Shown: positions 5,816 to 32,758 of the stretch, piece by piece
Position numbering within the stretch: the stretch's first letter is position 1
Layout: the number at the start of each line of letters is the position of its first letter
Notes under the pieces: generated by a model
Seen by the model: the letters and a program-made list of their open reading frames with translations, nothing else
Databases searched by the model: none
What the model was told of the DNA's origin: nothing
Virus record (IMG/VR): IMGVR_UViG_3300044621_000501
Span: 1 to 33,043 of that record
Reading direction: 5' to 3' (one strand)
DNA length: 33,043 nucleotides
From: a virus
Position numbers and translations under genes: made by a program

Positions 5816-8238
5816 TATTTAGGCCCAAATGATTCTAAATCAAATCCAGATAAATCATCTTCTGTGCTCTCAAAATTCTGAGGCGGTAGGTTATTCTGTC
5901 GTTGGTTAATTAGCTCAGACTGACGAGTGGCCTGTAGGTCTACTCGCTTATCTTTCGCCTTTTCTTTTTGGTCTTCACGATCTTTCAATGTCTGCATCTG
6001 CATTCCGTTCAATTGCATGTTGTATTGGAACTCAATAGCCATCAACTCTTTCTTGAGTTCGGCTTCTGCCTGCATCTTCTGAATGTCGCCTTGAACTTCC
6101 ATCTGCTTGATCTGAGCTTTCGTTTGGCCTTCCAATTGGATGACCTGTGCTTTTGCCTCAGCAGCTGCTTGAGAGGATTGGATGTTTGTCTGCATTTGCA
6201 TTTGGAACTCCATCTCTTTCTCTTTCTGCTTTTGCTCCATACGCTTACGACGTTTCATCTTAAGCATCTCGTTGGCAAGCTTGATATTGTTAATCATACG
6301 GATGTCAATTGCATCCTCTAGGTCAATTGTCTGCTGCTGTAGAGCGACTTGAATGTTTTGCTCAAGCTGAGCTTTTTGCTCTTCGTCTGGTGCAATCTCA
6401 ATGAAGATACCAAAATCGTGTAGGTAAAGATCCTTAACGTCCTCAAGTATTGCCATGTTGTACTTGCCAATCTGCATAGCAAACTCCTCAGCGAAGTCAG
6501 CATATTCAAGTATGTCAGCAACGCGGATAGATAAGCACTCAGCAACTCTCTTGGTGGTATTAAGACCAGCGTCTAAGATGTGGCGAGTAGCTGTGTTTGA
6601 GTTTAGCGCTGCAAGCTTCTGAACACCAACCAAAGCATCCGGGTGTGGTGTTGATGCGTCACGCACCTCGTTTACACCCGTCACGTCGCGGATCATATTC
6701 AAGTAGTGGTTGTAGTTGCCGATAAGGGCAGCCATCTTAGCTTGACCACTGTTTGAGTTGAGTTCTTGAATTGGAATACGCGCGTTGTTGAAATCACCGT
6801 CTTGTGTGTAGCTACGTCCAATCACACTACCCGTTTGGAAGTATAGATTGAGTGCATCCTCAGGGTTGTATGCGGCACCTGTTCCAAGGTCTACTTCATT
6901 AATACCATCAGCATCAATGAACACACCATCAGGAACTACGCGAGCCATAACTTGCTGTAGCTTCAAGTGAGTCAATTGGATCTGATCGGCAAATGGAATC
7001 ATTCGACGAACAAGTGACTCAATATTTCCTTTATAGTAACGTGGAGCGTAAGCAATGTAGTTTGGAAGTGCTTTCTGTGATGCAGACTTAGGACGTACCA
7101 TATTCTTCATCATCTCCCACTTAATGATGATGTTTGATCCACCGACCAATACACCTTCATACCAAACGTCACGAACGGCTTCAACTACCTCAAACATTTC
7201 GTTTGGTGGTGGGTTAAAGTTGTCATCCTTACGGATCACTCGCTCTCCTCCGTTCTCAAGTAATTTCTTTTTCCAAACAAACTTCTTGTGAGTCTTATAG
7301 TTAAAATATAAAAGCGTCACGACCTCATTTAAGAATGCGTCGTCTTGATAGTTACGAACCACAGGGAAGTAGTCATACCAAGCTGAACCTGCGTTCTTAA
7401 TCTCAGTCAACTCTTCGTCAGTAAGGTTTGGATTCATTTTAAGCAGCTCAGTGTAGTGAACCTGCTTAACCTCCCCGAAGTAGAAACAATCAGAGAAGTC
7501 GCTCTTTTCAGTATAGCTGTGAATCCAGTTAGCTGGATCTACATACTCAACCTTAACACCATCATTAATAAGGAACTCATGCTTTACAACACCGAGTCCT
7601 ATCGTGGCTACGTCGTAGTAATAATCTCTCAACACATCTTCATAGTCATTCATCTTAAGAAGTGTGTTGATGGCAATCTCTTCAGCGATCTCAATAGATG
7701 GCTTGTAGTTCATTTGCATATACAGAGAAAGCTCCTGATCATTTGCAGGAAGCTCATCTGGATTTACGTTGAACGCGTCGATACCAAGTGTTTCCTTGGT
7801 CATCATTAAGAAGTCCTTAGCCACCATGTCAGCCTCGATCATGTCCTGGAACACGTTCTTTTTCTCAGCCGATAAAACATCCTGAGCCTCTGCCTTAATG
7901 GTGTATGGTCTGTCTAACATTCCGTTGACAACCACGTCAACAAATTTAGGAATGATTGGAACCGGAGTCCAATCTAAGTTAAGCATTGATATGTCGCCAT
8001 TAACAGCGATTTCATCCTTGTACTTCTGTACAGGCTGTTCTCCACGGGCATATAGTCTCAAGCGGTGGAATTCACCCCACTGCTGATAAAATCTGCTTGA
8101 ATTAGACTTCCTCTTAAACCACTCCCCTTCGATAGCTTTTCCTACCTTTAATCCGTAATCAAAAGTCGCCTTGATTTCATCTGGCGCCATTTGGTCCGGA
8201 AAGGGTAATGAGGAGATAACAACTGATGTTTTATCCAT
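5815..8238 (-). CDS. Portal protein
   Basis: This 807-residue protein is the expected DNA-entry ring at one head vertex, where terminase docks. It lies directly downstream of the terminase large subunit, with TAATG overlaps at both ends. The body includes tryptophan-rich and Tyr-rich segments typical of the portal wing and stem (for example VDPANWIHSYTEKSDFSD). The region around residues 480-560 fits a helical crown or stem zone. The last 150 residues form a Gln/Glu/Lys/Met-rich coiled coil, which continues as an acidic tail. The size is large for a portal but usual for podovirus-like and crAss-like phages. The call is from order, length and architecture. Confidence 0.85.
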   Translation of the reverse strand: MDKTSVVISSLPFPDQMAPDEIKATFDYGLKVGKAIEGEWFKRKSNSSRFYQQWGEFHRLRLYARGEQPVQKYKDEIAVNGDISMLNLDWTPVPIIPKFVDVVVNGMLDRPYTIKAEAQDVLSAEKKNVFQDMIEADMVAKDFLMMTKETLGIDAFNVNPDELPANDQELSLYMQMNYKPSIEIAEEIAINTLLKMNDYEDVLRDYYYDVATIGLGVVKHEFLINDGVKVEYVDPANWIHSYTEKSDFSDCFYFGEVKQVHYTELLKMNPNLTDEELTEIKNAGSAWYDYFPVVRNYQDDAFLNEVVTLLYFNYKTHKKFVWKKKLLENGGERVIRKDDNFNPPPNEMFEVVEAVRDVWYEGVLVGGSNIIIKWEMMKNMVRPKSASQKALPNYIAYAPRYYKGNIESLVRRMIPFADQIQLTHLKLQQVMARVVPDGVFIDADGINEVDLGTGAAYNPEDALNLYFQTGSVIGRSYTQDGDFNNARIPIQELNSNSGQAKMAALIGNYNHYLNMIRDVTGVNEVRDASTPHPDALVGVQKLAALNSNTATRHILDAGLNTTKRVAECLSIRVADILEYADFAEEFAMQIGKYNMAILEDVKDLYLHDFGIFIEIAPDEEQKAQLEQNIQVALQQQTIDLEDAIDIRMINNIKLANEMLKMKRRKRMEQKQKEKEMEFQMQMQTNIQSSQAAAEAKAQVIQLEGQTKAQIKQMEVQGDIQKMQAEAELKKELMAIEFQYNMQLNGMQMQTLKDREDQKEKAKDKRVDLQATRQSELINQRQNNLPPQNFESTEDDLSGFDLESFGPK

Positions 8239-11200
8239 TATTCGATAATTTCGCTTCTTATGCCAGTATTCTTATATCTTACAAATTTAACACTTATTTT
8301 AGATTCCTGCTTAACAGGTATAAATAGGTGTCTTCTAGATGCCATTAATGCCAATCCTGAGCTAATAGAGGCATCGTGTTTTGTTCGGTTGTTAATGTCA
8401 AATCTTGCCCAGTCATTTAACGTTCTCGTAAAGTACATGTCACCCATACTATCTTTTTCTCGATAATTACCTTCTGCGTCGATTCCTACGTACTCTTCAA
8501 TGTAAGTGTTGATGCTATTGGCATGAGCGTGCTTTATATCTTCTGAAGAGTTAGGAATACCACCTAGCTCAAGCTCTGTCTTTGATAGTTTAGACGTATG
8601 CTTGTCAGGTCTGTTCATTGAGAATGGACGGTACCCTCTGTTCTTAAAGTGATACAATAGTCGCTGCTTGTTATTCTCTACAAGTATAGGCATTCCATAG
8701 AAAAAACAGGCCATCAATACATCCTCAAAGAATATCTCAGCAGTCTGAGGACGAGCAATATATTCCAAAAAGAAGTGATTGGTTGGCGCGTTCTCCATGT
8801 GAAAGTTGGTTATGCCGTGGAGTGCACCTGCAGACCCACCACCCCCAACTACACCTGATATGTCATAAGGGTCACAACCAAACACACCGATATCTTTATT
8901 ACCAGGGTGAAATTTGCCGTCCTTCTTAATTACGTTATTACGCATCTTAGCGTCAGGAATCCATGATACCACAAAACGCCCCTTTGGATCAGGAGTCCAA
9001 ATAACCTCGCTATCTTTCTCGCCGTTCTTCCAATGAAAGTAACCAGTTGTTAGGACGCGATCTTTAATCATCGCATCGTTGTAGTCAATCTGTTGGTATA
9101 TCTTCGTTAAGTTAAATAAAGATGACTTACTCTCATCTCTAAATGCATGCGATTCTGTTCTAGGGAACTGACGGTAGTATTCGTTGAGTGCGTCTGAGTC
9201 TGACTTCATTGCAGCTACCTCATTATTCCAATAGGTGATAACACCCATAGTAATCTGCTCACCATCGATACCCATCACAGGTTTCTTTGGATCATCAAAT
9301 ACTGGCCATCCATACTCGTCAATAAAGCCCTCCATGTTCCATTCCATTGGAATAAACAAAGAGTAAAGCCCCGACTTGGTCTGACCATTGGCAGATCGCT
9401 TGGTTGGATCACTATCGTAGAACAACTTCTTAAAGTTCTCACCACCTTTACTAAGCGCGTTTGATGTTGATCCCATCATACACTTACCAATGATACGGCT
9501 ACCAAGACGCAAACAAGTCTTAGTGACTCGCCAGTTATTTAAGATGTTCTCTGGCTTTTCCCACTTACCGCTATTCATACTGACGGTAAAGTCTCCTAGT
9601 ATTAATTTTCTTTCATTGTCATTATCTGCATCTACCTGTATGCCGATATACTCACCTTTATCTAAATACTCTACAGACACTTTATTTCGTCTGCCTCTAG
9701 TTTTAGGTACATAACCTTCAAATGATTTCTTTTTTGTGATTAAAGGTATAATTGATAAATCGCCTGATATGCTTATGTTGTATGATTTTGTATTGAAATT
9801 TGTATCCTTTTCTTTAACATTGCTACAACTAAGTCCGCATGATAGAGCTAAGAACCTTATTTGTTCTATAAGGTCTTTCCTGCTCATGCCTAATGATATG
9901 ATGTTTTTATTCTTGTCAGAATATCCATCTGTTTCTATTATACCTGCTAATAACTGAAGTCTAGTCTCTATAGACGACTGCATGTATTGCATTGGTATGT
10001 GCTTATTTTTATAAACACCTATTTTTTTTAATTCAGAATTAATGCCTTTAAACCTAAATTCAATGATTTTATTAGAAGTACTTTTTATTAGTTCAAATTG
10101 AATATTCATTACGGTAGAAAGCTTTCCTAAATAATCAAGAAGTTCAGGCTCTTCATATTTATTTACTAAAATAGTCATAGAATTACTCCTTCCATCACCA
10201 AGCCAAAGCCCTAATAGAAATGGAGGAATACCTTCAAATATATCTTGTGATTCAATACCAGTAGATGCAATTCTAGTTAGATGTTGCTTTCTAAATTTAG
10301 AGCTATTAATATACTCTTCTGGATTCATTATAACCTCACCTTTTTTATACTCGTTAAGCACAAGTCTATGGTTTTTTGTTACAACATAATCCTCTCCATA
10401 TGGCTGTTTGACTAAATATCTATCTGTTACTCCTTGCGTTCTTTTTACAACTGTTTTTATAATTCCACCATCTACTATTACATTATCTCCAATATTTATA
10501 TCCTTTATCTCTTTAAAGGTGAAATCAGACATTAATATTTTTGTGTTTGGTGCGTAGCACTCATCATGTACAAGCAGAAGTAGTTTCTCACCGTCATAGC
10601 TGTTGTCTGCTGTGTTTTTCCAGTCAATGGTAGTATCTAACCCATCTATATCATCATCGCGCTCCTCATCCATATTCTTACGAGTAATCTTACTCGCAGG
10701 GACACGGAAGGCCAACTCCGTCTTCGGGTTGTCCATACCGTCCTGGATCGGCTTGAAAAAGAATGGGTAATTTCTTACGATAGGTACAACCTTGTCGGTA
10801 AACATCTTCTTGGCATCAGATCCTGTTTTGGATAGAATACCAAGCCTGGCATCTCTGACAATTGTACCTGTGTTTGAAGTCTCTGCAGACGACATGAATG
10901 AGAATCCTGAACGACGGTTCTTTAGGTAGCACATACCAAACGCCCGACTGTCTGCTTTACACGCCTCCCAAAATATGTAGAATATTCGGTTGGACTCACG
11001 GAAGTCAGGAAGACCAATATCAATCTTGGTCCACTGAAGATACATGTAGTGCGTTCCGGTGATGTATGTCGGTGTTCCATTGTTAATGAACCAAAAGCCT
11101 TGCTCTCGTCTCTCAAATTCATCTTCAATCATATCCACATACTTAGACTTGAACGCGTTATCTCTTCGGTTCCAGTCAAATATTGACTTAATTTTCTGTA

Positions 11201-11444
11201 GTTCAGATGGATACTCTACTGGCTGCCATCTGTTACCTCTGTTCTCTACTCCTTTAGGAGTAGAAGGCAAAGCAACCTTCAATCCATTTATCTCATAGAT
11301 CTCGCCAATGGTTCCATCCTTAGATATGACGATGAGGTCGTACTCTTTGTTGTACCCATAATCCCACGACTTCTTATTGTTCTTAGTATTAAGAGCAGTC
11401 TTATTAATGTAGTCGTTTACTATGGAGTACAGCTTATTTTCCAT
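8238..11444 (-). CDS. terL: Terminase large subunit (packaging ATPase and nuclease) with an intein
   Basis: The product is 1068 residues before splicing and about 739 after removal of an intein at residues 296-624. It pumps DNA into the head and cuts concatemers. A variant Walker A lies at about 175-182 (KNRRSGFS) and Walker B at 288-295 (LLLLVHDE). A coupling motif GSTSN lies at 658-662. The C-terminal RuvC-like nuclease shows D858 in GCDPYD, E923 in LVENNK and D1024 in KHDAS. The intein starts directly after the Walker B glutamate, and joining the flanks restores HDE-SGKWEKPENI. The start overlaps the upstream 91-residue gene by 11 bp, and the stop overlaps the portal start. Confidence 0.95.
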   Translation of the reverse strand: MENKLYSIVNDYINKTALNTKNNKKSWDYGYNKEYDLIVISKDGTIGEIYEINGLKVALPSTPKGVENRGNRWQPVEYPSELQKIKSIFDWNRRDNAFKSKYVDMIEDEFERREQGFWFINNGTPTYITGTHYMYLQWTKIDIGLPDFRESNRIFYIFWEACKADSRAFGMCYLKNRRSGFSFMSSAETSNTGTIVRDARLGILSKTGSDAKKMFTDKVVPIVRNYPFFFKPIQDGMDNPKTELAFRVPASKITRKNMDEERDDDIDGLDTTIDWKNTADNSYDGEKLLLLVHDECYAPNTKILMSDFTFKEIKDINIGDNVIVDGGIIKTVVKRTQGVTDRYLVKQPYGEDYVVTKNHRLVLNEYKKGEVIMNPEEYINSSKFRKQHLTRIASTGIESQDIFEGIPPFLLGLWLGDGRSNSMTILVNKYEEPELLDYLGKLSTVMNIQFELIKSTSNKIIEFRFKGINSELKKIGVYKNKHIPMQYMQSSIETRLQLLAGIIETDGYSDKNKNIISLGMSRKDLIEQIRFLALSCGLSCSNVKEKDTNFNTKSYNISISGDLSIIPLITKKKSFEGYVPKTRGRRNKVSVEYLDKGEYIGIQVDADNDNERKLILGDFTVSMNSGKWEKPENILNNWRVTKTCLRLGSRIIGKCMMGSTSNALSKGGENFKKLFYDSDPTKRSANGQTKSGLYSLFIPMEWNMEGFIDEYGWPVFDDPKKPVMGIDGEQITMGVITYWNNEVAAMKSDSDALNEYYRQFPRTESHAFRDESKSSLFNLTKIYQQIDYNDAMIKDRVLTTGYFHWKNGEKDSEVIWTPDPKGRFVVSWIPDAKMRNNVIKKDGKFHPGNKDIGVFGCDPYDISGVVGGGGSAGALHGITNFHMENAPTNHFFLEYIARPQTAEIFFEDVLMACFFYGMPILVENNKQRLLYHFKNRGYRPFSMNRPDKHTSKLSKTELELGGIPNSSEDIKHAHANSINTYIEEYVGIDAEGNYREKDSMGDMYFTRTLNDWARFDINNRTKHDASISSGLALMASRRHLFIPVKQESKISVKFVRYKNTGIRSEIIE
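9573..10559 (-). mobile_element. Intein with LAGLIDADG homing endonuclease inside the terminase gene
   Basis: This is an in-frame 329-codon element. It starts with Cys (CYAPNTKILMSDFTF), has a TxxH block (VTKNHRL, residues 356-359 of the precursor) and ends GDFTVSMN before Ser +1. Two dodecapeptide motifs are present, LLGLWLGDG (D417) and LLAGIIETDG (D506), both with their acidic residue. A homing nuclease is therefore predicted to be intact. The penultimate residue is Met where His is usual. By eye the DNA is more A/T-rich than the flanking terminase exteins, which fits separate ancestry. It interrupts the ATPase active site just after Walker B, a typical choice of conserved site. Confidence 0.93.
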
Positions 11445-19906: not shown

Positions 19907-20673
19907 TTAGGTACACTGTATAATTGGCCGTCAATCTTTTTGATCTTGTTACCTAAATAACCCTCAACCTTTTTTGTCTTAATCATTGAAGGATGCTTAG
20001 GTCCCTTTAATATCATACCATCGTTGCCAATTGAACCCCAATGACCTGTCTCATCTGGACCAATACCAGCTGCTTTAGCTGCTTCGTAATTGTATCCGTA
20101 TTTCTTATCAAGCTTGGCAGTCTTTTGAGTGTTACCTGCAGCTCGATCATACTTCTTATCCATTCGATCATATCGACGATCAACAACACGATTAATACGC
20201 TTGTTCTCATCAACAGCTGCAATCTTTTGATCTACCTTCTTTTTCTGAGTGTAAAGATTACCTGCTTTCTTTTCAGAACGATATTCTTGCATAGCCTCTC
20301 GGCCTGCCTGACCTTTCTTCCAAGATCCCATACCAAACTTCTCAGCACGACGCTCAGACTTAAAGCCAATTAGCTCACCTCTTTTAGATGCCTCGTCATA
20401 TGCCCCCCATGGATCTTCTCTTAGATCGGTCCATGTCTTACCTCCATTGTTAGGGAATACAGTTGGGTTTACTGTATACTTGTACTTACCGGATCCACCC
20501 TCGCCACCTGCCATGACATGTGTAGAAGTAGTACCGTCAGCATTTTGCATTGGAGTAATACCCTCGCGCATACTGCGCGCTTCTTTAGCCCTTCCTTTAG
20601 TAATTAAAGGTGGATTGGTTGTCATGCCTGTCAAGCGAGTAATCGCTGAGTTCTTGAATGGTATATTGTTCAT
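19903..20673 (-). CDS. Basic, Lys/Arg-rich conserved phage protein
   Basis: The protein has 256 residues from ATG 20673, chosen for its ATGA overlap with the previous stop; an ATG at 20685 would add four. The N-terminus (MNNIPFKNSAITRLTGMTTN) resembles that of the 72-residue protein at 24618-24836. The middle is a long basic helix rich in K/R/D. The C-terminal part has ETGHWGSIGNDGMILKGPKH, a segment I have seen in other phage proteins without assigned function. A virion or head-interior role is possible. Confidence 0.65.
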   Translation of the reverse strand: MNNIPFKNSAITRLTGMTTNPPLITKGRAKEARSMREGITPMQNADGTTSTHVMAGGEGGSGKYKYTVNPTVFPNNGGKTWTDLREDPWGAYDEASKRGELIGFKSERRAEKFGMGSWKKGQAGREAMQEYRSEKKAGNLYTQKKKVDQKIAAVDENKRINRVVDRRYDRMDKKYDRAAGNTQKTAKLDKKYGYNYEAAKAAGIGPDETGHWGSIGNDGMILKGPKHPSMIKTKKVEGYLGNKIKKIDGQLYSVPK

Positions 20674-21129: not shown

Positions 21130-21615
21130 ATGAAAGTTAGAAAAACAATCATCTACGAAAAGATAGTACAACGCGAACCGCTGAAGTATGACTTTCTTAC
21201 AGAGTGGGCAATCGTAAGACGATGGGCTCAAGTGAATTATAGCATCAGACTCTCAGATCTTGAGATGCTATTCTTTTTACATGGCAATAGGCTATTCAGA
21301 AAGTCAGACTTTGACGAATACAAGAACTTCATGACTTGGGACAGCCGGCGCTTTAACAGATTGTTGAAAGATGGCTGGATCAGTGAATGGCGACAGAAAA
21401 ATTACAACGAAGGCCAACTGTATGAGGTGTCTTTTAAGGCCAAGAAAATGATTACGTCAATTTATAAGAAGTTAATCGGAGAAGAACCGATTCCGACGTC
21501 ATCAAGACGCAATAAGGCCTTCCGAAAAAACGCACCGTTTCATCAAAAGACCTTAGCTATTGCGATAACAGATTTTAATCGAAGACGCAAACAACGTCCC
21601 TCTCCTGAATTATAG
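21130..21615 (+). CDS. Possible winged-helix DNA-binding regulator
   Basis: This 161-residue protein begins MKVRKTIIYEKIVQREPLKY. The part from about residue 41 (RLSDLEMLFFLHGNRLFRKS) through WDSRRFNRLLKDGWISEWRQ and a beta wing (EGQLYEVSFKAKKMI) fits a MarR-like winged helix. The C-terminus is basic. It is the only rightward gene in the left arm, is divergent from the late genes and has its own promoter. This suggests control of late genes, but that is inference. Its last 41 bp overlap the 3' end of groES on the other strand. Confidence 0.65.
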   Translation: MKVRKTIIYEKIVQREPLKYDFLTEWAIVRRWAQVNYSIRLSDLEMLFFLHGNRLFRKSDFDEYKNFMTWDSRRFNRLLKDGWISEWRQKNYNEGQLYEVSFKAKKMITSIYKKLIGEEPIPTSSRRNKAFRKNAPFHQKTLAIAITDFNRRRKQRPSPEL

Positions 21616-21835
21616 TCATCCTTTCATTATCAAGGATGATCTCATGGCTTTGCACTTTATCGTATAGGATAGTATCACCGGCTTTTATGCCGAAGATGCT
21701 GTCACCCACAGAGTGGGTAACCGCCTTGTGGTACCGCATGTCGTTGGAATCCTCACCGGTTAAGAGTAGACCACTCTTGGTCTGCTTTTGCTCAGCTACT
21801 TTCTTTACGAGTAAGAACTTATTTAATACTTTCAT
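21575..21835 (-). CDS. groES: Phage GroES-like co-chaperonin
   Basis: This 86-residue protein is slightly shorter than bacterial GroES (about 97). It shows the mobile-loop segment TKSGLLLTGED (compare GGIVLTG in host GroES), then AGDTILYDK and a C-terminal VVCVFD. It should cap the GroEL ring and close the folding chamber. It overlaps groEL by 17 bp and follows it, the reverse of the usual bacterial groES-groEL order. Its 3' end also overlaps the rightward regulator gene by 41 bp. Confidence 0.9.
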   Translation of the reverse strand: MKVLNKFLLVKKVAEQKQTKSGLLLTGEDSNDMRYHKAVTHSVGDSIFGIKAGDTILYDKVQSHEIILDNERMTIIQERDVVCVFD

Positions 21836-23387
21836 CTGCTCTGATATTTGTAATGATTGCGTTTGTGCTCATGATCGTCGTAGCTACCGACACAGCGTTC
21901 AATAAAGCGTTCTTAGTGACTTTAGCCGGGTCAATGATGCCAAGCTTGATCATGTCACCGTACTGCTCTCCTTTGACGTCGTAGCCCTCGTTAGGGAACG
22001 GTAGGATGCCGTCCATGATCTCTTGAGCGTCTTTGCCAGCGTTCACAAGTATTTGCCACATTGGAGATGTTATGGCTCTGAACATAATTTGCTCAGCAGC
22101 GCCAATCTTACCGCGTAGGTGTGTAATCGCATACTCATACAAAGCAACACCACCACCAGGAAGGATTCCCTCCTCTAATGCAGCCTCAACAGCGCATACA
22201 GCGTCGTCGATGCGGTCGCGCTTCTCCTTCTGCTCAATGTCACTGAGCGCTCCAACGTGTATCACAGCAACACCACCCGATAGGTTGGCCGCTCGCTCTT
22301 TACGGTTGTCAAGCTCTTCTTTTGTTATGCCTTCGAATATGGTCTCGTTGATGTCGGCAATTCGGGCGTCTATGCTATCTTGAGAGCTAGCATAGGGCAT
22401 AAAGATCGTATTGTCCTTACCAACGATCACCTTAGAGCAACGACCAAGATGTGCCACGTCAATAAGAGATAGGTCATCACCAGTGTCCTCACTAAAGTAT
22501 GTGCCGTCCAATACGATCGCTAGGTCTTCAAGCAGGTCTTTCTGACGGTAGCCAAAGCTTGGCGGCATGATATGGCAAGCCTTGATCTTGCCTTGAGCGA
22601 CGTTTATATTAAGGGTGTTAAGTGCAGCAGGTGTCATCTCACCAATGATGAGTAGTGACTTATTTTGCGCTACAACATGCTGTAGGACCTTCTCAATGTT
22701 GAGTAGGTTGTTAATCTCTTGGTCAGTGATTAAGACGTATGGGTTCTCTAGGATGGCCTCCTGACGCTTGTAGTCAGTGATGAAGTGGCGACTAGTCCAA
22801 CCTCGGTCAGCCTTAATCCCCTTGATCACCTCAACATATGTGTTGTGGTCCTTACTGTTCTCAACAGATACCATCTTGACCTCACTGAACGCGTCAGCGA
22901 TCATACCACCAATAGTGGTGTCATTGTTGGCACTTATTGACGCAACGTCTTTTAGCTTCTTGCCTGAGAGTTTTTTGGCTCGTTTGGTCAAGTGCGTTAC
23001 AACATTTGTTGTAATGCTATTGATCTCACGGATGACCTCGGTTACGTTTTTATCCTCAGACAGTATGTCTGTGGCTGCATCCACAATAGCCTCAGCGATG
23101 ACAATACTGGTCGTTGTCCCATCACCAGCAACAGTAGCCGTCTTCTCAGCAGCCTGTCGCATCATCATGACGGCTAAGTTCTCAACCGGGTCATAGAGGT
23201 TGATCGACTTAGCGACCGTCACACCGTCCTTTGTTACTGTAATGCCACCAACGTGATGCTCTGATTCAATTAGGACTGTCCGTCCTCGCGCACCGAGTGT
23301 GCTTTTTACTGCTCCAGCGATCGTTTTAATGCCTTTAATGAGCTTTTGGCGACCTTCATCGCCTAAATGTACATGTTTTACTACCAT
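21819..23387 (-). CDS. groEL: Phage GroEL chaperonin
   Basis: This 522-residue protein is the ATP-driven folding ring subunit. Conserved points are TKDG (D54, as host D52), GDGTTT at 88-93 (D89, as host D87), RIDDA (D395, as host D398) and LPGGGVALYEYA after it. All catalytic acids are present, so it should hydrolyse ATP. It lacks the GGM-rich tail of most bacterial GroEL and ends IRADESIK. A TAAATTTG -7 box lies 18 nt before the ATG and overlaps a perfect inverted repeat. It probably folds abundant virion proteins and may replace host GroEL. Confidence 0.95.
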   Translation of the reverse strand: MVVKHVHLGDEGRQKLIKGIKTIAGAVKSTLGARGRTVLIESEHHVGGITVTKDGVTVAKSINLYDPVENLAVMMMRQAAEKTATVAGDGTTTSIVIAEAIVDAATDILSEDKNVTEVIREINSITTNVVTHLTKRAKKLSGKKLKDVASISANNDTTIGGMIADAFSEVKMVSVENSKDHNTYVEVIKGIKADRGWTSRHFITDYKRQEAILENPYVLITDQEINNLLNIEKVLQHVVAQNKSLLIIGEMTPAALNTLNINVAQGKIKACHIMPPSFGYRQKDLLEDLAIVLDGTYFSEDTGDDLSLIDVAHLGRCSKVIVGKDNTIFMPYASSQDSIDARIADINETIFEGITKEELDNRKERAANLSGGVAVIHVGALSDIEQKEKRDRIDDAVCAVEAALEEGILPGGGVALYEYAITHLRGKIGAAEQIMFRAITSPMWQILVNAGKDAQEIMDGILPFPNEGYDVKGEQYGDMIKLGIIDPAKVTKNALLNAVSVATTIMSTNAIITNIRADESIK

Positions 23388-27543: not shown

Positions 27544-27668
27544 AAGATTGGATTGCCGATGTCACAATCATCAATGGCTTCTACGCCACGCAATGCAGTC
27601 AATACACTAATCGTTTAACGCTACGAGAGCTCGTAGCATATTACTTTAAAGAATATGTACACAATTGA
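27540..27668 (+). CDS. Early small protein (42 residues)
   Basis: The protein begins MKDWIADVTIINGFYATQCS and ends in a helix (TLRELVAYYFKEYVHN). It overlaps the previous gene by 4 bp and the iteron-bearing frame by 14 bp. Function unknown. Confidence 0.5.
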   Translation: MKDWIADVTIINGFYATQCSQYTNRLTLRELVAYYFKEYVHN

Positions 27669-27813
27669 CCAACTTTCAATCTTAGCAGGCTTACAGCCAG
27701 CCAATATGACGAAATCGTCTTCCAATATGACGAAAAACACCCCAAATATGACGAAAAAACGTCCTAATATGACGAAAAAAAAAGCTAAATGCTTGACTAT
27801 CAAGCATGAATGA
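27655..27813 (+). CDS. Possible peptide encoded across the iterons (52 residues)
   Basis: The peptide begins MYTIDQLSILAGLQPA and then repeats NMTK four times with 7-residue spacing, which is the direct translation of 21-bp-spaced ATGACGAAA iterons. It ends in a basic tail (KKKAKCLTIKHE). It has a plausible start overlapping the previous gene. It may be real, with DNA repeats dictating the protein repeats, or the frame may be only a by-product of the iterons. Confidence 0.35.
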   Translation: MYTIDQLSILAGLQPANMTKSSSNMTKNTPNMTKKRPNMTKKKAKCLTIKHE

Positions 27814-28046
27814 CAATATGACGACTTTTTACCCCTATAGGGGAAAAATACTTATATGTATTTTATCATATTATTATATATATAATATATATACTCTTTT
27901 TTTTATTTTTTATATAAGAGACTAAAAGTCGTCATTTCGTCATAAAACAAAGCCCATTAAAGGATACAGAAAATAATTTCGTCATAATCAACAGAAATTT
28001 CGTCATATTGTTAATAAAGTCGTCATAAAAAACTTCATTTCGTCAT
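27706..28046. repeat. Inverted iteron arrays around an AT core: replication-origin candidate
   Basis: Forward copies of ATGACGA(AA) start at 27706, 27727, 27748, 27769 and 27818, mostly 21 bp apart. Reverse copies of (TT)TCGTCAT end at 27935, 27943, 27985, 28006, 28026 and 28046, mostly 20-21 or 42 bp apart. Between them lies an almost pure A/T stretch (27844-27918). The palindrome CCCCTATAGGGG stands at its left edge (27832-27843). Face-to-face helically phased binding sites flanking an easily melted core is the layout of an iteron origin. A partition or regulatory site is the alternative. Confidence 0.75.
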
Positions 28047-28109
28047 GCTTTTCGGGTAATTTTACAAAAAACACAAAAAGTGTTTGTATATAAAATAACC
28101 CCTTTAAAT

Positions 28110-28433
28110 ATGACAAAGACAAAGTACAGACAACTGCTCAACCAATCAATCAGAGCAAAACGATGGAACGAAAACTCGACTGTCCGACAACTAGTCTGCA
28201 TGCCTCGAGAGAAATTCCGCATGTATCTCGAATCCCAGTTCACCGACGAAATGACATGGGACAACTTCGGCACCTATTGGTACCTTAAATTCCGCACACC
28301 GCTCAAGACGGCAAAGGATGAATACCAACTCATCACATTGTTTCACTATTCTAATATCTATCCACATGAAATTATTCGAGCTAAAGAAAATCCAGTCAGA
28401 CTTCCCAACCGAGAAGATAACAACATCAAATGA
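28110..28433 (+). CDS. HNH-like protein lacking the catalytic motif
   Basis: The protein has 107 residues from ATG 28110; a GTG at 28080 would add ten. The segment MYLESQFTDEMTWDNFGTYW and then LITLFHYSNIYP and AKENPVR follow the layout of phage HNH nucleases of the W-x-IDH-x-x-P type, in which such blocks flank the active site. Here the expected HIDH is replaced by YLKF (about 58-61). Cutting activity is therefore unlikely, while DNA binding may remain. It is the first gene after the iteron array, so an origin-linked role is possible. It overlaps radC by 68 bp. Confidence 0.6.
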   Translation: MTKTKYRQLLNQSIRAKRWNENSTVRQLVCMPREKFRMYLESQFTDEMTWDNFGTYWYLKFRTPLKTAKDEYQLITLFHYSNIYPHEIIRAKENPVRLPNREDNNIK

Positions 28434-28794
28434 AGCACAACAATTCATCCGTCAATTTTACGGAGATGACATCGAGGTATTCGAGAGCGCGTTCATTTTA
28501 TTACTCAATCGGCAAAACAAAACAATCGGCTATGCCAAGATAAGCCAAGGCGGTGTTGCAGGAACATATGTTGACTCAAAGATAGTCGCGAAGTATGCTG
28601 TTGACAGCCTATCGAGCGGTGTAATCTTTTGTCACAATCATCCTTCTGGAAACCCTGACCCATCCCCTGAGGACATTGCCCTCAGTAAAAAACTAAAGAA
28701 AGGTCTTAAATTGCTAGACATCAATTTATTAGACAGCATTATATTAACCCCAACTTCAGCTTACACATCATTAGCTGACCTAGGACAAATCTAA
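28366..28794 (+). CDS. radC: RadC-like JAB/MPN domain protein
   Basis: The protein has 142 residues from ATG 28366; an ATG at 28318 would add 16 but deepen the overlap. The metal motif HNHPSGNPDPSPED gives H90, H92, S100 and D103, the JAMM pattern of the RadC family. The N-terminal helix-hairpin-helix of long bacterial RadC is absent, as in plasmid and phage versions. The biochemical role of RadC is unsettled; this family travels with mobile elements and replication or restriction genes. It overlaps the HNH-like gene. Confidence 0.88.
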   Translation: MKLFELKKIQSDFPTEKITTSNEAQQFIRQFYGDDIEVFESAFILLLNRQNKTIGYAKISQGGVAGTYVDSKIVAKYAVDSLSSGVIFCHNHPSGNPDPSPEDIALSKKLKKGLKLLDINLLDSIILTPTSAYTSLADLGQI

Positions 28795-30901: not shown

Positions 30902-31381
30902 ATGTCACACTGGAGAAATTTAATGAAGGACAATAAGTACCTAGGGAGTTGGGACTTAGAGGTCAACGGCAAGTATGAGCCGAGAGTAGTAACAATCGAG
31001 AAGGTCTTTCAGGACGTAATGGTCGGAGAGATGGGTAAAGAAGACAAGGTGTTCATCAAGCTCAAAGAATTTCAGAAGAGCATGGTGGCCAACCGGACGA
31101 ACTTCAAGAGACTCGAGACGTTCTTCCAATCGTTTGACTTTAACGACTACGTTGGCAAAGAGATTGTCCTTGGTGTTGAGAAGGTCAAGAGTCCACAAGG
31201 AATGACTGATGCGCTGCGTTTCAGCACACGTCCGTTACCTAAGAAGGAGAAGCCAAGCATCACACCTGAGCGATTTGCTAAGGCATTGCAGGCCATTGCT
31301 GATGGCAAAACCACGGCTGAGAAGTTAATTAGTGATTTCAATCTAACACCAGAGCAACATGCTGAAGTTACGGGCAAGTAA
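30902..31381 (+). CDS. OB-like DNA metabolism protein of unknown function
   Basis: This 159-residue protein begins MSHWRNLMKDNKYLGSWDLE. The segment MVANRTNFKRLETFF, then DYVGKEIVLGVEKVKSPQGM and DALRFSTR, matches a common phage pattern in which a small beta-barrel domain precedes recombination genes. The C-terminal 50 residues are helical. It has its own promoter and overlaps the exonuclease start by 23 bp. It may bind single-stranded DNA or act with the exonuclease; neither is proven. Confidence 0.65.
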   Translation: MSHWRNLMKDNKYLGSWDLEVNGKYEPRVVTIEKVFQDVMVGEMGKEDKVFIKLKEFQKSMVANRTNFKRLETFFQSFDFNDYVGKEIVLGVEKVKSPQGMTDALRFSTRPLPKKEKPSITPERFAKALQAIADGKTTAEKLISDFNLTPEQHAEVTGK

Positions 31382-32144
31382 GTGCGCACCGCTATTCAAC
31401 AGCGGCACACCAGGGCTTACGCCTAATCAACAAGCAACTCTTGATGGTCTACTATCCAAGATTAAATTGACTGAATTACAGGCAGCCAAGCGAGACGAGT
31501 TGGTTACAAAACGTGACCAACAGCCTGAGCTAAGTCAAGGTGCCAAGACATTGATCGAGGAGATCATTGACGAGAAGGTATACCAGTACAAAGATCATTT
31601 CTGGAGCAAGGAGACTGACAAGGGTACAGCTGTTGAGGACGAGGCAATTGAGCTGTATAACCGCATCTTCTTCACGTCATACAGCAAGACTGTTGACGGT
31701 GACAAATATGCATACTTAGATACACCGCTCATGCATGGCCACCCTGACATTGTTGATGCTGACAGGCTAAAGGTGCTTGACATAAAGTCATCATACACCA
31801 AGAAGACGTTCCCAAAGACTGAGGAGAAGGCTGCTAAGAAGGTCAAAGAGTCAGGGTATGACTGGCAGGTGAAGGCATACTTATGGATGCTACGTCAGAC
31901 GACCGGCCTTGATTGGCGTGATGGCGAGGTGGCATACATGCTATGCAACACACCTGAGGAGTTGTTAGGTGAATGGGACGAGCCAAGCTTGCACTACATG
32001 GATGACATTGACGACAACATGCGTGCGACGATTGTGAGAGTGACTCTCACAGACGACGACATCTCAACGATCGAGCGTTGGTTGAAGGTAGCTAATGATT
32101 ATGCTGAGAAATATATTGGCGTATTAAAAACCAAGAACCTATGA
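31359..32144 (+). CDS. YqaJ/lambda-exonuclease-type PD-(D/E)XK nuclease
   Basis: This 261-residue protein is predicted to be a 5'-3' exonuclease that exposes single strands for recombination. The N-terminus has the LRASK motif usual before the YqaJ core. Active-site residues are E93 in GTAVEDEA, D130 in MHGHPDI and D141-I-K143 in VLDIKSS, with Q170 in DWQVKAYLWM. The size fits the family. It lies between an OB-like gene and an SSB-like gene, so together they form a recombination and repair module. It overlaps the genes on both sides. Confidence 0.88.
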   Translation: MLKLRASKCAPLFNSGTPGLTPNQQATLDGLLSKIKLTELQAAKRDELVTKRDQQPELSQGAKTLIEEIIDEKVYQYKDHFWSKETDKGTAVEDEAIELYNRIFFTSYSKTVDGDKYAYLDTPLMHGHPDIVDADRLKVLDIKSSYTKKTFPKTEEKAAKKVKESGYDWQVKAYLWMLRQTTGLDWRDGEVAYMLCNTPEELLGEWDEPSLHYMDDIDDNMRATIVRVTLTDDDISTIERWLKVANDYAEKYIGVLKTKNL

Positions 32145-32410: not shown

Positions 32411-32758
32411 ATGTTTAAATTCAAAGGGATTGCCTACAAGGTGGGCAATGTGGAGACCATCTCCGACAAATTTCGTAAGCGTGAGCTAGTATTAACCGAT
32501 GGTGCTGACCAGTACCCACAGTACATTCCATTCACATTTGTTAACGACAAGTGTGACTTATTGGAGAGCATTGCTGAGGGCCAAGAGGTCGAGGTATCGT
32601 TCAGTTTGAAGGGTCGTGAGTGGACTAGTCCACAGGGTCAGGTGAAGTTCTTCTCAACCATTGAGGGCTTTGCTGTTGCTGCTGAGAAACCGGCATTCGT
32701 TCCAGCGCCTAGCACTCCAGGATCAGGTCACACTGACGACTCGGATCTCCCATTTTAA
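32411..32758 (+). CDS. DUF3127-type single-strand DNA-binding protein
   Basis: This 115-residue protein begins MFKFKGIAYKVGNVETISDK, followed by KRELVLTDGADQYPQYIPFT and VEVSFSLKGREWTSPQGQVK. These match DUF3127, an OB-fold family related to SSB in Bacteroidota and their phages. A flexible Pro-rich linker leads to the acidic end DDSDLPF, the kind of tail by which SSB proteins recruit partners. It is the last gene of the recombination module and is followed by a terminator. Confidence 0.85.
   Translation: MFKFKGIAYKVGNVETISDKFRKRELVLTDGADQYPQYIPFTFVNDKCDLLESIAEGQEVEVSFSLKGREWTSPQGQVKFFSTIEGFAVAAEKPAFVPAPSTPGSGHTDDSDLPF

Follow-up and report, generated by a model that had tools for sequence, protein, structure and literature searches.

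Iteron array and its genomic setting

The window analyzed here is a stretch of 33,043 nucleotides (virus record IMGVR_UViG_3300044621_000501) that represents about half of a phage of approximately 65 kb, and contig G001 (65,113 bp) includes this stretch at 99.95%. No exact terminal repeats were found in the long contigs. Genes in the left part of the window lie on the minus strand and include those for a terminase with an apparent intein, a portal protein, a capsid protein and GroEL. An early block of genes on the plus strand extends beyond the end of the window and encodes an exonuclease, a protein resembling single-strand DNA-binding protein (SSB), and then a primase-helicase of 777 residues, referred to here as Rep. 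In G001 the rep gene begins approximately 1 kb downstream of the window.

The terminase large subunit (8238-11444, minus strand) has an apparent intein-like insertion that spans roughly residues 295-625 and has homologues among the inserts of other terminases. Only about 500 residues of the terminases of G003 and G004 align, suggesting that the insertion is missing there. The phage GroEL gene (21819-23387, minus strand) adjoins a small gene (21575-21835) that appears GroES-like by eye. Beyond the window, at L126 (37364-39583 of the oriented G001), an SF2-type helicase gene looks split by an intein-like element, and an endonuclease-like frame overlaps this element.

The non-coding interval that holds the iteron array is bordered by the stop codon of a small gene (27666-27668) and the proposed ATG of the next gene at 28110 (Table 1). 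A sequence-only reading of this DNA had described eleven copies of ATGACGA here, five direct on the left and six inverted (TCGTCAT) on the right, and every copy is present where it was reported. The window contains 13 ATGACGA in total, the two outside the array being at 11326 and 20393-20399. In 1000 dinucleotide shuffles of the segment 27400-28200, where 11 copies occur, the mean was 0.13 and the maximum 3, and the best count for any four-letter 7-mer was 5.

Table 1. Coordinates of the array elements and neighboring genes in the window
Feature	Position	Strand	Basis or remark
Non-coding interval (~440 bp) around the whole array	27669..28109	.	Between two plus-strand genes
Left outer iterons, AATATGACGAAA repeated four times in direct orientation with a 21-bp period (ATGACGA starts 27706, 27727, 27748, 27769)	27703..27777	+	Exact matches, period
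Short hairpin ATGCTTGA-CTA-TCAAGCAT separating the left outer sites from the inner ones	27788..27807	.	Terminator-like on minus strand
Left inner tandem pair, ATGACAA (27810) and ATGACGA (27818)	27810..27824	+	Mirror of 27929-27943; tandem inner pair also in relatives
Proposed unwinding element, an A+T-rich core that includes a TATATA stretch and an oligo-T tract	27844..27923	.	Oligo-T and A+T core also in relatives
Right inner tandem pair, ATGACGA twice in inverted orientation (ends 27935, 27943), 8 bp apart	27929..27943	-	Sequence, inverted-repeat match
Right outer iterons, inverted ATGACGA (ends 27985, 28006, 28026, 28046)	27979..28046	-	Exact matches
RadC/JAB-domain gene downstream of the array	28318..28794	+	PF04002, E=3e-31
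PD-(D/E)XK exonuclease gene, early module	31359..32144	+	phrog_5715, E=5e-45; PF12705
Single-strand DNA-binding-like protein (DUF3127), early module	32411..32758	+	phrog_4932; PF11325

When the sixth, degenerate copy on the left (ATGACAA) is counted, the spacings become nearly mirrored, running outward from the core at 8, 41, 21, 21 and 21 bp on the left and at 8, 42, 21, 20 and 20 bp on the right. Each half of the array thus ends beside the core in a tandem pair, 8 bp apart, and the arms 27810-27829 and 27924-27943 are 90% complementary. The proposal that the sites lie on one face of the helix holds for the spacings of 20-21 and 41-42 bp and fails for the 8-bp inner pairs, which are constant in relatives. 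The core had been described as nearly pure A/T; at 92% A+T it is the richest 75-bp segment in this phage's 65-kb genome. Hairpins of other sequence occupy the place equivalent to that of the left hairpin in relatives. Searches of the array region against Rfam and, at the DNA level, against annotated phages gave no match, and sigma-70-type promoters were not in excess over chance.

Conservation of the layout and change of its letters

Relatives were gathered by searches with the RadC and Rep genes, and many of them are contig fragments. The inverted arrays, for which a search of related phages had been suggested, proved to be kept in at least 33 of the 108 loci with the same Rep: left direct and right inverted copies surround an A+T core, and the letters differ. 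Close relatives (Rep 88-100% identical) retain arrays of ATGACGA. In a second group (Rep 73-75%) the layout is retained and ATGTCRA/ATGTYRA runs through the entire array; more distant phages (Rep 48-62%) have arrays of ATGTTRR, GTGTYRA, GTGTCGR or ATGTCGA. The letters change in concert along whole arrays, as seen for ATGACGA, ATGTCRA, ATGTTRR and GTGTYRA.

The tandem inner pair also recurs on both sides of the core in relatives, its copies 8-9 bp apart. Searched across the Rep loci (1.77 Mb), a strict form of this pattern, defined as RTGWYR pairs facing each other, gave 41 matches, compared with none for a reversed-letter control and four for the swapped orientation. Counted per locus, it occurs in 33 of the 108 Rep loci (block-shuffle mean 2.9, maximum 6) and in one of the 72 RadC loci from which this Rep is absent. 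Approximately two thirds of the Rep loci, many of them fragments, are without the strict pattern; degenerate arrays are visible by eye, for example in L176, L180, L213 and L226. Fourteen distant relatives have the array at most 320 bp upstream of the rep ATG, and in the circular record MW202828.1 facing sites are found directly upstream of the Rep gene, which is annotated there as 'vire al domain'.

Other arrangements were encountered in the same collection. Two RadC-bearing phages without a recognizable copy of this Rep have facing TGTAACA / TGTTACA arrays with inner tandem pairs (L042:13565-13827 and L044:6998-7341), and in L044 even the flank CTAAAAGTC beside the core is shared. These may possibly be origins of the same kind that use another initiator. 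On a Bacteroidota MAG contig whose Rep is 42% identical (L231:9375-9895), facing GTGTTG repeats lie upstream of rep with the opposite polarity, CAACAC on the left and GTGTTG on the right. Direct GCGGCACGAA repeats, without a clear mirror, are located upstream of a 41%-identical Rep in L152 (994-1594).

The gene downstream of the array varies among relatives, being a DUF gene with RadC, RadC only, neither of these, or rep. Since the downstream genes differ, they are unlikely to be readers or clients of the array. The neighboring proteins had been put forward as binders of the iterons, one of them as HNH-like; this is probably wrong, as downstream genes differ or are missing where the array is kept, and the supposed HNH-like gene (28318-28794) encodes the RadC/JAB-domain protein. 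RadC itself was rejected as the binder because L136 and L149 keep the array without a RadC gene. The same variation bears on whether the array could be a cis-acting control region, with operators for a phage regulator of early genes. Its position at the front of the early plus-strand block, and abutting the start of the next gene in some relatives, would suit such a role. We nevertheless consider an operator region very improbable, because the array stays while the downstream gene varies, the genes that flank it are co-directional and not divergent, and at least ten mirrored sites with an extreme A+T core, found also beside plasmid rep genes, exceed what operators need.

The primase-helicase as candidate initiator

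Comparison of the sequences suggests that the likely initiator is the phage's own primase-helicase, encoded approximately 6 kb from the array. Rep consists of a BT4734/VirE-type primase domain, a D5/SF3-type helicase and a modelled C-terminal winged helix (domain matches PF08800 and PF19263). A model of the full protein matched the fold of the SaPI5 primase-helicase (7OLA/7OM0, E about 2e-11); a sequence search of the PDB with Rep returned nothing significant. AlphaFold models predict a winged-helix topology for the C-terminus, with a helix at residues 734-749 and a wing hairpin at 754-765. Searched alone, this domain gave insignificant winged-helix matches to Fur, TubR, ORC2 and Cdt1 among PDB folds (E at least 0.07) and only phage Rep homologues among BFVD folds.

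The letters of the arrays co-segregate with Rep residues ~311-777, comprising the helicase and C-terminal part, and they do so in recombinants as well, although the tree behind this covariation contains few independent changes. L138 combines a B-type primase segment with an A-type helicase and C-terminus and has A letters, and L141 is A-type in residues 1-75 and B-type in the remainder and has B letters. The exonuclease and phrog_21613 genes, which are tightly linked to rep, also segregate A versus B, so linkage alone does not single out Rep as the reader. Within the predicted wing, residue 757 is lysine both in the A group and in L219, a distant relative, each of which has strictly ATGACGA, and arginine in nearly all others. 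A rule that lysine 757 is always paired with ATGACGA was rejected, since L230 has ATGACGG with arginine 757; it is also broken by L152 and L154, which have lysine 757 with the repeat GCGGCACGAA and no clear mirror. The pattern at residue 757 is a lead toward specificity, short of proof.

DnaA domain IV is an origin-binding fold, and the phage encodes a stand-alone protein of 154 aa that resembles it (Bac_DnaA_C, E=4e-6, just under the curated cut-off) and is conserved in relatives. The iterons of the origin could be bound by this protein, which would then load the helicase, and some relatives have a second weak match to a DnaA-like paralogue just upstream of rep. The DNA-binding region of the DnaA-like protein is nearly identical in G002 and G004, yet their letters differ (ATGACGA and ATGTCRA, respectively). 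Moreover, no exact DnaA box TTATNCACA is found at the array, and sites with one mismatch number 25 in the window compared with 44 expected. On this evidence we regard the DnaA-like protein as an unlikely reader of the iterons; host DnaA boxes, and with them a DnaA/oriC-type origin, were likewise rejected for want of an exact box at the array. Stand-alone DnaA domain IV proteins recur in these phages. A second small gene of this kind is located just upstream of rep in L133 (9309-9503), L141 (9727-9921) and L240 (6297-6599), and in MW202828.1 one small gene is annotated as 'dnaA' and another as 'chromosomal replication initiation protein'.

Homologues of the Rep helicase and C-terminal domain (34%) are also found on two Salinibacter ruber plasmids. 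Facing arrays with inner tandem pairs lie directly 3' of the helicase gene on both pSR14 (TGGTCCA) and pSR31 (GTCACA). Unlike the phage, these plasmids have other motifs and an array 3' of rep, and their origins are likewise predicted. No clear array was seen in the stretches examined of the Persicobacter plasmid L239. Plasmid centromeres are also iteron arrays, and TubR is among the insignificant fold matches of the Rep C-terminal domain, so a partition site whose iterons are bound by a segregation adaptor deserves mention. We judge this the least probable of the explanations considered, because no recognized ParA/ParB/TubZ-like gene lies beside the phage array, mirrored arrays and a melting core are unnecessary for partition, and on pSR14 and pSR31 parA is ~8-10 kb from the array, which there adjoins rep.

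Origin interpretation and comparison with known systems

The array is very probably the site at which this Bacteroidota phage starts DNA replication, a reading that the comparison of sequences strongly supports. The sequence-only reading had also proposed an origin, and both the conservation of the array in relatives and the concerted change of its letters support it. The cumulative GC-skew plot it had suggested is compatible with an origin here, the detrended minimum lying no more than 5 kb from the array in four genomes, but the signal is confounded by the nearby switch of coding strand.

We think it quite likely that 27703-28046 is an origin at which Rep binds the iterons through its C-terminal domain, melts the core and starts bidirectional replication. 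The C-terminal winged helix would bind the ATGACGA iterons, and because the arrays face each other, two Rep assemblies are proposed to load in opposite orientation, head to head, with the inner tandem pairs next to the core as the most likely loading sites. These assemblies would melt the 80-bp A+T-rich core, and the fused primase would prime in both directions, resulting in bidirectional replication. Rep binding, hexamer loading, melting and bidirectional firing are all steps that we infer.

A layout shared by phages and by two plasmids that encode a homologous helicase would amount to a general initiation system, not one peculiar to satellites. Tentatively, Bacteroidota phages and Rhodothermota plasmids may belong to a widespread lineage whose mirrored origins are of a single class, each recognized by a fused primase-helicase. 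The iteron letters would then be a drifting code set by a handful of winged-helix residues, such as 757, and this code would give rise to phage replication incompatibility groups. The relatives would provide a natural series in which the origin letters and the DNA-binding domain of the putative initiator vary together, and recombinants separate the domains. Because the letters vary jointly with the presumed DNA-binding end of Rep, the evolution of start-site recognition becomes traceable, and the series and its recombinants together make protein-DNA recognition and phage origin incompatibility testable. The motif may also serve to mark origins in uncultured Bacteroidota phages.

Lambdoid O-protein origins and the origins of iteron plasmids have iterons next to an A+T-rich unwinding element, as does the phage array. 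Their iterons lie on a single side, however, and their initiators have no helicase activity, unlike Rep.

A closer resemblance is to the satellites, for which our statements on SaPI draw on PMC7581432 and PMC6092414. In PICI origins an A+T-rich region is always enclosed by iterons in two sets (PMC6092414), a layout that according to a 2018 paper is found in no other known bacterial replicon, and the rep-ori of EcCICFT073 sustains plasmid replication (PMC6092414). PICI/SaPI replication is initiated by an SF3/D5-type helicase that in some cases is joined to a primase, and the C-terminal domain of this initiator recognizes the origin (PMC7581432). Rep is similar in having an SF3/D5-type helicase with a putative C-terminal DNA-binding domain, as indicated by PF19263, PF08800, the SaPI5 fold and the modelled winged helix. 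The EcCICFT073 origin, read directly from its sequence, also has facing tandem pairs, 9 bp apart; its iterons are in mixed orientations, whereas the phage array is cleanly mirrored. The phage motif family, RTGWYR, is unlike that of PICI origins, and the array is located ~6 kb upstream of rep, or directly 5' of it in the 14 relatives, whereas the PICI origin is directly 3' of rep. The window also carries terminase, portal, major capsid protein, structural and packaging genes, whereas a PICI is an integrated, helper-dependent satellite island short of a complete set of virion genes. With its own virion genes and an origin not 3' of rep, the element is not a PICI.

The self-loading D5-type helicase Cch2 of SCCmec has an isolated C-terminal domain that binds the iteron region (PMC7581432). 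The putative Cch2 origin differs from the phage array in having only three iterons and no mirrored arrays. P4, compared by length and iteron layout, encodes in alpha a primase-helicase of the same length as Rep (777 aa) and has annotated GGTGAACA iterons beside the primase-helicase gene, with tandem pairs about 9-10 bp apart. In P4, unlike in the phage, ori and crr are distinct sites that each carry iterons, and they do not form one mirrored array. Our best reading of these comparisons is that the array would be the origin of a self-loading primase-helicase, borne by a phage and working like the origins of the phage satellites PICI/SaPI and P4.
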